From NCBI GenBank assembly GCA_004124475.1, contig SCKK01000006.1:1-64000 (forward strand): DNA of 64,000 nt, read 5' to 3'. The stretch is from Fidelibacterota bacterium (GTDB lineage Bacteria > Fidelibacterota > Marinisomatia > Marinisomatales > SCKK01). A model generated the notes under the pieces. The model was not told where the DNA came from. It saw nothing but the letters and a program-made list of their open reading frames with translations, and searched no databases. The first letter of the stretch is position 1; each line of letters begins with the position of its first letter. The position numbers and the translations under genes are program-made. Below are positions 11,802-64,000 of this stretch, in pieces.

Positions 11802-11895
11802 TTCGACCTCCTTATTCAAATGGGTAACATCTTCCTTTTAAATGTGTATAACGCCTCAAATCACTGGCGCCTTTGGCGACTCGTACATTTTGTGG

Positions 11896-12549
11896 TTATA
11901 CCTTTTGTAAGATAATATTGTAAGCATAAATCTCTGGTTTATCTTCTACTTTTGAAGACATCATAAGTTTTCTTTCTTCTTTGCTCTTTCGTTTTAACAA
12001 AAGATCTGAATCGTTAAGTTGATGTCCTGGGAAATACATTTGTGTAATGAGTTCAATATATCCCTTCTTACTAACCTTAAAATGTATATGTGGAGGCCTT
12101 GTCCATTTATCAGATGCCGGATAAGCTCCAGGATAAACAGTTTTGAAACGAAACTTTCCTTCTTTTCCACTTGGCACAATAGCCCATCCTTGAAAGTTAG
12201 GGTCCAATGGAGCTTCGTTTGAGTCATGCGGATGTCTATACCTTCCAGCTGCATTCGCTTGCCACAAGTCAACCGTGGCATCCGCAACTGGGTTGCCATC
12301 CGTATCCAAAACCTGCCCTTGGATGATTATTATCTTCCCTTTAGCCACTCCCTGTTTTCCCTGTATCCGTGTCAGATCAAAGTCCTTATCTTTCTGAGCT
12401 AACACGGGATAGAAAGAGCCTTCGATTTCCGGTGGAGTGGGGTATAGCTTTGGCAAATAACTTGCATATGCAGAACTTGCAAACAGACCTAACGCTCCGC
12501 CGATTACTCCCCCCTTAAGAAAAGTTCGTCTATCCATTTTATCCATCAT
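11896..12549 (-). CDS. Intradiol ring-cleavage dioxygenase, Tat-exported
   Basis: 217 residues. The N-terminus carries a Tat signal (DRRTFLKGGVIGGALGLFASSAYA). The catalytic domain matches the protocatechuate 3,4-dioxygenase beta-like fold with the four non-haem Fe(III) ligands visible: Y104 (GRYRHPHD), Y143 (PGAYPA), H154 and H156 (RPPHIHFKV). Such enzymes cleave catechol-type rings between the hydroxyls; exported forms act on extracellular aromatics or polyphenols. The first two codons are both ATG, and AAGGAG lies just before them, so the second ATG (12546) may be the true start. It follows the Rieske and reductase genes on the same strand, but spacing does not show an operon. Confidence 0.88.
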   Translation of the reverse strand: MMDKMDRRTFLKGGVIGGALGLFASSAYASYLPKLYPTPPEIEGSFYPVLAQKDKDFDLTRIQGKQGVAKGKIIIIQGQVLDTDGNPVADATVDLWQANAAGRYRHPHDSNEAPLDPNFQGWAIVPSGKEGKFRFKTVYPGAYPASDKWTRPPHIHFKVSKKGYIELITQMYFPGHQLNDSDLLLKRKSKEERKLMMSSKVEDKPEIYAYNIILQKV

Positions 12550-12576
12550 ACTCCTTGTCCTTGCATAATGGATAAG

Positions 12577-12701
12577 CTCACCGCGCGTGAGACTTCTACT
12601 TTCATGCTTTTGTTAAACAAATTTACATTCCTTTTTTCACTTAAACATCAAATTCACGCTACGCACTTCTCACATCGGGTGGAGCGTTGGTTAGAAGGCA
12701 T
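12577..12701 (-). repeat. Degenerate attC-like site at the end of the 12719-13189 unit
   Basis: GTTAGAAGGCAT at 12690-12701 is a perfect inverted copy of ATGCCTTCTAAC at 13210-13221, on the other side of the neighbouring gene. Inside it, the arm TCTCACATCGGGTGGAGC is loosely complementary to AGCTCACCGCGCGTGAGA near 12572-12589. The layout fits an attC belonging to that gene with its distal R box lost. The match between arms is imperfect. Confidence 0.35.
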
Positions 12702-12718
12702 ATTGTTATGAATGATTT

Positions 12719-13189
12719 TCACTCTCTATTAGTTTGTTCATATGAATGAATGACACCAACCAAGTATCCACATATATAGGCTAATGTAGTATAAAGTAAT
12801 GTCTTGTGATCATTACGATATTCACGTTTTGTCTTGGTATATTCATCCTTAAGTGAACTTCCGATAAAATCAATGTCTGATATTGTGATTTGTTTATCCA
12901 TCTCATGTGAACATTTATTTCTCACTTTATTTAGGTTTTTTAAGCTTGATATTAGTTCATCTGGAACTATATCAAAGGAATCGAGAAGTGATACTTTTTG
13001 GTAATAACCTAGATTTCCGTTGAAAACGATTCTATCACCTCTTTCTAGGACAAGCATAATTAAACTTTTAATTAGATTTTCTGTCAGTAAGTGTGCACGA
13101 AGTAATAATAGTACTGGGTCAAGATCAGGATCGACTATTTTTGTAAATGTTTCAAAATCTTTATCAAAATCTTTATCTATTTCAGCCAT
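12719..13189 (-). CDS. HEPN/DUF4145-like hypothetical protein
   Basis: 156 residues, all helical in appearance, with an N-terminal helix DPVLLLLRAHLLTENLIKSLI and the motif RNKCSH (R-N-x3-H) at about residues 91-96. This combination is seen in HEPN-superfamily proteins (MtlR/DUF4145-like), many of which are RNases in toxin or defence systems; that function is inference. The C-terminal part has a hydrophobic helix (LLYTTLAYICGYLVGVIHSY). The gene is a single-gene unit delimited by a 12-bp perfect inverted repeat and the best long attC-like palindrome in the window just upstream, which fits an integron cassette. Confidence 0.6.
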   Translation of the reverse strand: MAEIDKDFDKDFETFTKIVDPDLDPVLLLLRAHLLTENLIKSLIMLVLERGDRIVFNGNLGYYQKVSLLDSFDIVPDELISSLKNLNKVRNKCSHEMDKQITISDIDFIGSSLKDEYTKTKREYRNDHKTLLYTTLAYICGYLVGVIHSYEQTNRE

Positions 13190-34262: not shown

Positions 34263-34654
34263 TAGCATCTTTATACAACGCCTCAAAATTATGTATAAAG
34301 ATTTCTTTGCAATAATTAAGTGAAAAACATTGACAAACGTACATTATATCCTCATGTTCACAGTACATGAACAATGCATATTAATGAATAAGGTATTTTA
34401 CAAGGTTATTAGCCCAGAATCCCTTAGTGCTTGTGCTGGGTTTTCTTCCTTTGAAGTTGTACCATCACTGTTAAATGGCACACCAATTATATTAATCTTC
34501 ATCTTATTCTACTCTGTTCATAGCTTCTATCAGTTTGCATAACCGTTAAAAGCATCTGGATCGTAAGTGGAATATTCTTTTATCCGGTTCATGCTTTTGT
34601 TAGCCTACCCTGCTAATTGACAGGTGTGATTGAGTTCTCAAGAGGTTTTCCTTT
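34263..34654. other. Gene-free spacer
   Basis: About 390 bp between convergent genes. A small GTTCACAGTACATGAAC inverted repeat lies near 34358-34374. No terminator of clear form and no gene were seen. Confidence 0.35.
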
Positions 34655-62189: not shown

Positions 62190-62303
62190 TTTGGTCTAAA
62201 ATTATAGTGTTAAATTAATGAACTATTCAAGGAAACCCAATGAATGGTTCTCGCAAAATGAAATATTGATTGGTGGTTGTGAGAATCCTCGTTATAAGAA
62301 ATT

Positions 62304-62693
62304 CTATTCCACCTCAAAATAACCCCATTCCGACTCGCCACACACTTCCGCCCTATAAAGATCATCAACAATAAAGATGGCGATGACTTTCCAACGGGTT
62401 GTGCCTGCTGGGAATTGATCGAATTGATATCTACACTCCAATACATTAGAAGGCCATGCGGAACTATCAGAAGCAATATAATTCAAGGTGATGGGTCCAG
62501 AAAATCCAATCCAATTATTCAGGATAGAACAAGTCCATACCGTCGAAATTTCTGGGAGGTTACTTACATCTTCTACACGAACGGCAAAATAATTTGCCCA
62601 ATAAAACTGACTATCAAATGTCAGCCATGTAAAGGAGGGTACATTGTTAGAAATGGGATTTAAAATAGAAATAAATTTTAGGAGATATAGCAA
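62304..62693 (-). CDS. Hypothetical protein, possibly 5'-truncated
   Basis: Up to 129 residues, beginning with a TTG and no internal Met, so the true start is doubtful. The sequence is beta-rich and aromatic (SFTWLTFDSQFYWANYFAVRVE, TLNYIASDSSAWPSNVLECRYQF, WKVIAIFIVDDLY), like the C-terminal part of an extracellular beta-sandwich protein. It begins at the edge of an attC-like palindrome, which suggests truncation by, or insertion of, the neighbouring cassette-like unit. No family recognised. Confidence 0.35.
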   Translation of the reverse strand: MLYLLKFISILNPISNNVPSFTWLTFDSQFYWANYFAVRVEDVSNLPEISTVWTCSILNNWIGFSGPITLNYIASDSSAWPSNVLECRYQFDQFPAGTTRWKVIAIFIVDDLYRAEVCGESEWGYFEVE

Positions 62694-62696
62694 GGA

Positions 62697-62818
62697 AAAT
62701 AAACAGCATGGAAAGTTTTGTTCCGCTGATTTTCATGTTATAATTAAACTTTATTTTTTCACAAAAACTTTAAATTCACTCTATCAGTATTCGATGTTCT
62801 GTTTATTTGAGGTTAGGC
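62697..62818 (-). repeat. attC-like site of the nuclease-like gene (degenerate)
   Basis: GTTAGGC at 62812-62818 (GCCTAAC on minus) contains the gene's TAA stop. The adjacent arm TCGATGTTCTGTTTATTT is complementary to AAATAAACAGCATGGA near 62698-62713 apart from a 2-base bulge and one mismatch. The distal R box is not recognisable. Stop codons embedded in the first R box are common in integron cassettes. Confidence 0.45.
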
Positions 62819-63706
62819 GTCTCCAATAATCACAGTGAGGAACATGATACAATCTTCCACGCGCTTTTTGATGGCATTGAGCTGGAGTAAATTAAATGTA
62901 CCCGCTGAACCATGTGTACCATCATTAAGAACTCGAAATAGCTGAACAATGTTCTCAATGTCATTCTCCACAAATTCCTCAAGAGAATCATTAGACATAC
63001 CTTGCTTGTGTAAAAAGTATTTAATTTTTGAACGCCGAGTCGGGTTACCATTATCTGTTTTTTCACATGTCGGTAGCAAAGCTAAAACTTCAGCATCTGG
63101 AGCCTTTATTACTAAAATTTGTGTCATTATTTCACGTGTACTAGTGCAGAAATGCCGAGCGGCATCTGGATTTTGTGGATTTAGCGCAAAGACAGCTCCA
63201 TTCCAGCGATCATCAAGATCTGGGGAAATTTTCCGCAAGCTATCACGCAATTCAGCATCCTCTAATGTATCAGTGTATTCTTCAACATCATATTTATTAT
63301 TATGTAAATGATTAGTTACAGCTAAGCTATTTGCAGTTTCCCGTTCTGATAAGTCTAAAACTCGATTATATATAGAATTGAACTGTTGACTCTCTGCACG
63401 ATTTTCAAGCCTAGTATATGACTCGTGCAACGTGTCAACTGAATTTCGATAAACTACATAATTCGTCGTCGTGATGGTCACTGATTGCCTACTTAATCGT
63501 GTTAATTCACTTTTCAAACGTTGACGATTTGCTCGAACTCTTGCGTTATGAAGACGGACAGCTTGATTATACTTATTTATAGCATTTCTAACATTTTGAT
63601 TTTTGCGGCGGACAGCTTGATTGTACTTGTTAATTGCCTGCTTATGTTTTTGCTGGGCCTGTCGCATCTTACTTATGATTTGAGAGGCTGAATATCTTCG
63701 CACCAT
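62813..63706 (-). CDS. Putative pPIWI-associating-type nuclease, cassette-borne
   Basis: 297 residues. The N-terminal ~70 are highly basic and helical, with a tandem repeat of AINKYNQAVR (QAINKYNQAVRRKN and NAINKYNQAVRLHN). The C-terminal half, DRWNGAVFALNPQNPDAARH, IKAPDAEVLALLPTCEKT, RSKIKYFLHKQG and RVLNDGTHGSAGTFNLLQL, resembles what I remember as predicted pPIWI-associating nuclease proteins. The RVLNDGTH spacing (R-x6-H) also fits a HEPN-like helix pair. A defence role is inference. The gene is alone and flanked by GTTAGGC/GCCTAAC boxes, with a canonical attC 70 bp upstream. Confidence 0.6.
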   Translation of the reverse strand: MVRRYSASQIISKMRQAQQKHKQAINKYNQAVRRKNQNVRNAINKYNQAVRLHNARVRANRQRLKSELTRLSRQSVTITTTNYVVYRNSVDTLHESYTRLENRAESQQFNSIYNRVLDLSERETANSLAVTNHLHNNKYDVEEYTDTLEDAELRDSLRKISPDLDDRWNGAVFALNPQNPDAARHFCTSTREIMTQILVIKAPDAEVLALLPTCEKTDNGNPTRRSKIKYFLHKQGMSNDSLEEFVENDIENIVQLFRVLNDGTHGSAGTFNLLQLNAIKKRVEDCIMFLTVIIGDA

Positions 63707-63775
63707 ATAAACCTCCTTTGAATTTTATCCGGTTATTTTATTGAACATCCTTTAATGAATAGATTGCGACTTTAT

Positions 63776-63847
63776 GCCTAACGTTTGGGATAAACGGTTT
63801 GAAAAAGCGGCAGCTTTTTCAAATCCGTATTCATACCATTGTTAGGT
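63776..63847 (-). repeat. attC site (72 bp, canonical boxes)
   Basis: On the plus strand it starts GCCTAAC and ends GTTAGGT, exactly fitting RYYYAAC and GTTRRRY. Between them a stem CGG TTTGAAAAAGC / GCTTTTTCAAA T CCG with a GGCA loop and one bulged T forms the core. The size, boxes and bulge match integron attC sites. On the minus strand it separates the partial gene at the window end from the nuclease-like gene. Confidence 0.65.
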
Positions 63848-63908
63848 TTTTTTGTTTCATCAAGTTTTCACAATAAGCCATAAAAGCATCAGATATTTAG
63901 TTGATATT

Positions 63909-64000
63909 TTATTTGCCCTTTTTGTTATATTTTGGTTGGCTCTTTTTAATAACATTACCTTCTTTTTTCCCAGCATCCTTTATGCTCCTAAACTGTTCTA
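63909..64000 (-). CDS. C-terminal end of an unknown gene (partial)
   Basis: The minus-strand frame runs in from beyond the window and ends FRSIKDAGKKEGNVIKKSQP then KYNKKGK and TAA at 63911-63909. Only about 29 residues are visible: a basic, lysine-rich tail. It is the gene that would own the attC at 63776-63847 if this is a cassette array. Family cannot be told. Confidence 0.4.
   Translation of the reverse strand, partial: EQFRSIKDAGKKEGNVIKKSQPKYNKKGK

Follow-up and report, generated by a model that had tools for sequence, protein, structure and literature searches.

Systems built on prokaryotic PIWI (pPIWI) proteins have been described together with their associated nucleases (PMC3702460, PMC6299218). 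HEPN domains and RelE toxins have already been noted in integron cassettes (PMC3710099), and in 2025 phage-defence cassettes were reported from both chromosomal and mobile integrons (Darracq 2025, Kieffer 2025; reviewed in PMC12409362). The gene described here touches on each of these. It lies near the right end of a 64,000-nucleotide stretch of DNA, here called the window, which is positions 1-64000 of contig C68; the contig continues to 92,043 and belongs to a genome of 3.15 Mb that is 95% complete. Like the phage-defence cassettes of the recent reports, it is small, single-gene, cassette-borne and defence-like; unlike them, it sits outside an integrase-bearing array and is missing its own attC.

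The initial annotation had pointed to an ORF of 297 aa resembling predicted pPIWI-associating nucleases, and both the coordinates and the likeness proved right (Table 1). The protein matches PF18165 (pP_pnuc_1) at 160.4 bits, against a curated Pfam cut-off of 26.3 bits (E 2e–47), with an alignment spanning profile positions 2-133 of 133, and it also matches the PADLOC Aga_Nuclease profile (E 3e–11). The match is thus strong across the whole domain (residues 158-290), and full-length relatives are 37-77% identical; what sets the window protein apart from the described family is an additional N-terminal region of long helices (approximately residues 7-135), its place in an integron cassette, and the lack of PIWI nearby or in the genome. 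Invariant residues of the domain are W168, R184, H185, S189, R191, E192, R224, H265 and R282; the set H265, R184-H185, R191-E192, R224 and R282 is identical in 79/79 aligned sequences. Substitutions between the window gene and its relatives were biased to third codon positions (0.18, 0.11 and 0.63 for the three positions), which shows purifying selection on the protein, and for one pair of relatives (L029 and L031) dN/dS was ~0.03. Searches of PDB sequences with the protein and two profiles returned nothing significant, and a search of one paper library found none naming PF18165 or the pP_pnuc label. The gene is a genuine member of a family of suspected defence nucleases that has received little study, and it is well conserved.

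Table 1. Features of the pP_pnuc_1 cassette, its island and other cassette-like sites (window coordinates unless marked as contig)
Feature	Position	Strand	Basis or detail
CDS, 297 aa	62813-63706	-	ATG start, TAA stop; N-terminal long helices and C-terminal pP_pnuc_1 domain
pP_pnuc_1 (PF18165) domain	62837-63235	-	Profile match, AF2 model, Foldseek
R'' box GCCTAAC, left from the attC of the pP_pnuc_1 cassette itself	62812-62818	-	Sequence; TAA stop (62813-62815) inside
5' untranslated leader of the cassette	63707-63775	-	Ribosome-binding site AAAGGAGGTT at 63710-63719
Complete attC, 72 bp, between upstream cassette and pP_pnuc_1 cassette	63776-63847	-	Scan and covariance models
R' box GTTAGGC of the complete attC	63776-63782	-	
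R'' box ACCTAAC of the complete attC	63841-63847	-	
GIY-YIG-like gene, 91 aa, last of upstream cassette	63909-64000 (contig 63909-64184)	-	3' end in window
123-aa ORF	contig 64199-64570		Further upstream, beyond window
HTH-Panacea antitoxin-like protein	contig 64554-65345		Beyond window
Left island edge, left arm of direct repeat	62297-62664	-	Repeats the 3' end of the gene at contig 65907-66710 over 368 bp, at 91% identity
Right arm of direct repeat	contig 65900-66267		
Second small cassette array	11846-13189	-	
Abi_2/HEPN-like ORF	12719-13189	-	Second array
attC-like site	12563-12696	-	Second array
Intradiol dioxygenase ORF	11896-12549	-	End overlaps attC-like site 11846-11901
Weak attC-like match	34525-34605	-	21 bits, E 0.08

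The R'' box that follows the gene of a cassette and the R' box that precedes it derive from one attC, and should therefore be complementary. At this locus the TAA stop does lie within a GCCTAAC box, as first noticed, and this box is the exact 7/7 complement of the R' box GTTAGGC found 76 nt ahead of the start codon. In the complete upstream attC the boxes (ACCTAAC/GTTAGGC) differ from full complementarity by one mismatch, which is what a hybrid of two cassettes should show. That 72-bp attC with consensus boxes had also been claimed in the initial annotation, and it was found exactly there by a scan and by an independent covariance model. In a strict box-plus-hairpin scan it was the sole attC of a 20-kb extension, and very few were seen in 878 kb of the loci of relatives. 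A first covariance model, trained on attCs of gammaproteobacterial relatives and of contig C44 of the same genome with the window site excluded, recovered it on the strand of the gene (E 1.2e–5 in 20 kb, 1.3e–4 in 205 kb); a second model, enlarged with the matches of the first and again excluding the window site, agreed (E 4.9e–4 in 225 kb), all of these E-values being approximate. Its design recurs on contig C44, and blastn found no second copy of it elsewhere in the genome.

The other side of the gene is less complete. With filters off, the covariance model detected no L'', L' or R' on the 3' side of the stop, where only the 7-bp R'' box is present. The remainder of the downstream attC is gone, which makes integrase-mediated excision unlikely; the cassette is half-bounded and is probably frozen, that is, not excisable now. 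Thus of the original description as an attC-bounded, mobile cassette, the complete upstream attC and the origin as an integron cassette stand, but downstream the boundary is reduced to the R'' box and present mobility is improbable. With no IntI on the contig and one complete attC, the locus is neither a complete integron nor a CALIN, and it does not have the complete attC of its own, 3' of the ORF, that would define an integron cassette; it does have an attC at its upstream boundary, as recovered by the independent models. The complete attC and the complementary R''/R' pair support the conclusion that the pP_pnuc_1 gene came in as an integron gene cassette.

We found no sigma-70-like promoter match in the leader, and expression would be low unless the gene is transcribed from an outside promoter. 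A promoter-like site that cannot be found, together with the lost downstream attC and a cassette that can probably no longer be excised, is what would be seen if the gene were a decaying passenger without present function; against this, the ORF is intact, the invariant residues are retained and substitutions fall mostly at third positions, and we regard decay as very improbable.

Ordinary chromosomal genes flank what is left of a cassette array, which holds the gene and, upstream of it, a Panacea toxin-antitoxin-like module. A second gene had been seen to end beyond the attC, and it is a GIY-YIG-like ORF with its end at 63909. The initial annotation had proposed extending the sequence in search of further cassettes and an integrase: the extension yielded the Panacea/123-aa/GIY-YIG module, and an integron-integrase profile search found none on the contig. 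An ordinary operon, the outcome that the annotation had held up against its own proposal, was checked and rejected on the strength of the attC and the complementary R''/R' pair. A direct repeat brackets the island. The Panacea/123-aa/GIY-YIG module occurs at 96% identity in a genome of the same genus (G001), on another contig (C25, 2405-4102), where no more than roughly half of its attC is left and there is no pP_pnuc gene; the sequences flanking the empty site are at contig ends in G001.

Integrons are plentiful elsewhere in the genome. At least six integron-integrase ORFs scored above the family cut-off (on contigs C13, C50, C54, C57, C65 and C71), and fragments of others were found as well. 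Many contigs carry attC-like sites, 33 in all (E 1 or better), some of them clustered on C63; simple attC scans had overlooked these other arrays, which the covariance models recovered. The genome is unusually rich in integrons. The window itself holds a second small cassette array, with an Abi_2/HEPN-like ORF and an intradiol dioxygenase ORF, and one further weak attC-like match (Table 1).

For the structure of the protein we turned to AF2, which modelled the full length at pLDDT 88 and the C-terminal domain at pLDDT 90 (pTM 0.85). When the C-terminal domain was searched with Foldseek, the three best E-values belonged to the HEPN structures 2hsb, 2q00 and 3o10 (probabilities 0.91, 0.98 and 0.75, each with E above 0.1), and 8xeh, 8xdj, 4nqf and Csm6 5fsh were within the top 40; no match reached E 0.001, and TM-scores, normalised to the query, were 0.39-0.53. 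The long N-terminal helices made the corresponding search with the full-length model uninformative. No support came from hhalign against two HEPN-like single sequences, which constitute a weak test, and the integron-associated HEPN structure 3jrt was not among the 50 Foldseek matches listed. The lack of any nuclease or HEPN structural match had been named at the outset as grounds for abandoning the proposal; HEPN structures did take the best E-values, although none was significant.

In the AF2 model H265 follows a long helix (240-264) and stands at the start of a loop, and the conserved E192 lies in an earlier helix (182-201), an arrangement as in HEPN RNases (PMC3710099). With those RNases, including the integron-associated family (PDB 3jrt, PMC3710099), the window protein shares a C-terminal domain that is helical and reaches its best Foldseek E-values with HEPN structures, an invariant histidine ending a long helix, and an integron cassette location; it differs in lacking a conserved Rx4-6H arginine and any significant sequence or fold E-value. 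At the candidate arginine positions, R258 occurs in 51% and position 260 is F or L, while N261 is present in 91% of aligned sequences. Because the arginine is not conserved we stop short of classing the protein with the canonical HEPN RNases, and the evidence for a HEPN-like fold of the C-terminal domain is best called suggestive. The same loss would fit a HEPN-like domain that is not catalytic and instead binds nucleic acid or a partner protein, regulating another factor, as many HEPN domains are non-catalytic (PMC3710099). We consider this quite unlikely, since H265, R184-H185, R191-E192, R224 and R282, unvaried across the alignment, look more like an active site than a scaffold, and since HEPN families have been described in which a different basic residue may stand in for the arginine (PMC3710099). 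Our reading remains that of a putative effector, HEPN-like though non-canonical, whose role is probably anti-phage or toxin-like.

A scan of a genome collection turned up 99 relatives. We retained 80, nearly all of which align along their full length; the relatives come from 15 phyla (as counted from tree labels). The window protein falls in a clade with support 98/93 that mixes six phyla, its clade mates being from Planctomycetota, Lentisphaerota, Verrucomicrobiota, Acidobacteriota and Sumerlaeota; such a mixture at 66-77% identity to the window protein implies horizontal transfer. Copies at 42-55% identity are carried on plasmids of Phaeobacter, Dinoroseobacter, Sphingobium and Bradyrhizobium, some adjoining PaeR7I-type restriction-modification or RNA-directed DNA polymerase genes. 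No relatives were found in phage records or viral contigs.

The complementarity of R'' and R' is a simple way to spot former cassettes whose attC has decayed, and we applied it across the family. A perfect pair was present at 8 of 81 genes (the window gene, L029, L031, L039, L051, L053, L057 and L069), compared with 0.36 expected when boxes were swapped between genes. The TAA stop lies inside R'' in five relatives (L029, L051, L053, L055 and L057), and in L057 the gene has an attC on both sides. All 17 covariance-model attC matches in the loci of relatives were on the strand of the gene; some of these sites had trained the models, but those that had not agree in strand as well, which is informative. 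The gammaproteobacterial cassette copies form a clade apart from that of the window. The pP_pnuc_1 gene is therefore a recurrent integron cassette, in at least two distant clades.

The family is named for PIWI, and the association is real but occasional. The absence of an adjacent PIWI/RE gene, as originally stated, was confirmed for the flanking ORFs and extends by PF02171 search to the whole genome (95% complete). At least five of the 80 relatives, in the part of the neighbours scanned, are beside or near a short pAgo with an APAZ partner: in four loci (L044, L047, L048 and L072) the relative has a ThsB-like TIR gene on one side and a pair of DUF4365-APAZ and short pAgo genes on the other, and in L065 it is near SIR2-APAZ and short pAgo. 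Relatives in those four loci directly precede operons of the SPARDA type (PMC6299218, PMC12205087); such an operon is absent from the genome studied here, and the association is exceptional among the sampled relatives. The four TIR/pP_pnuc/DUF4365-APAZ/short-pAgo blocks are near-identical in hosts that are distantly related Proteobacteria, which suggests that the whole block moved recently. For most of the 80 relatives the neighbours scanned include no adjacent pAgo, so the stand-alone copy is not the special version that it had first been taken for; standing alone is the usual state. These five neighbourhoods might also be explained if the protein were an orphan effector dependent on a prokaryotic Argonaute acting in trans. 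We find this hardly credible: the 95% complete genome has no PIWI by PF02171, adjacent pAgo was not detected among the neighbours scanned in the remaining loci, and the pAgo systems concerned carry an effector domain of their own.

Other neighbours of the relatives include ThsB/TIR, BrxL, GajA, PtuA and MTase genes besides the DUF4365-APAZ and SIR2-APAZ genes with short pAgo, a list that covers the loci of the relatives alone. They bear on whether the protein might be a general stress or toxin-type RNase (a toxin-antitoxin component or dormancy factor) that integrons keep, rather than a dedicated anti-phage protein. Integron-borne HEPN and RelE toxins are known, with induction of dormancy proposed (PMC3710099), and the adjoining cassette is the Panacea toxin-antitoxin-like module; yet we saw no small antitoxin partner conserved beside the relatives, and several of these adjoin known defence genes and pAgo. 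We judge such a role unlikely, if the least so of the alternatives considered.

The explanation that we favour, and hold to be somewhat better than an even bet, is that of a stand-alone pP_pnuc_1 protein with a helical N-terminal region and a non-canonical HEPN-like domain, captured by an integron and most likely acting as an RNase-type effector. Integron recombination would have captured the gene as a cassette of its own, made up of a leader that bears a ribosome-binding site, the ORF, and a stop in R''; the array around it is now a small remnant that has lost its outer attC halves. The N-terminal helical region is probably oligomerising or sensing; a phage or plasmid, once sensed, would set off the RNase-type effector and lead to growth stop or cell death. 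The likeliest mechanism that we can infer is an RNase that arrests growth or aborts infection. Nuclease activity, trigger and anti-phage role are all candidate properties of the 297-aa protein, which makes a good candidate for anti-phage defence.

Integron-borne HEPN and defence genes were already known, so the locus alone has modest value, and the whole pP_pnuc_1 family is more interesting than this single member. It is a real possibility, though one that we put short of even, that the pP_pnuc_1 proteins of full length make up a single-gene defence family not described before, capable of acting without Argonaute, with a non-canonical HEPN-like active site (invariant R184-H185, R191-E192 and NxxxH265 replacing Rx4-6H), spread by integrons and plasmids over at least 15 phyla and sometimes placed beside short-pAgo operons. 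Should the family prove to be an autonomous defence effector, a Pfam family named only for its PIWI link would become a testable single-gene system, cassette-sized and present in many phyla.
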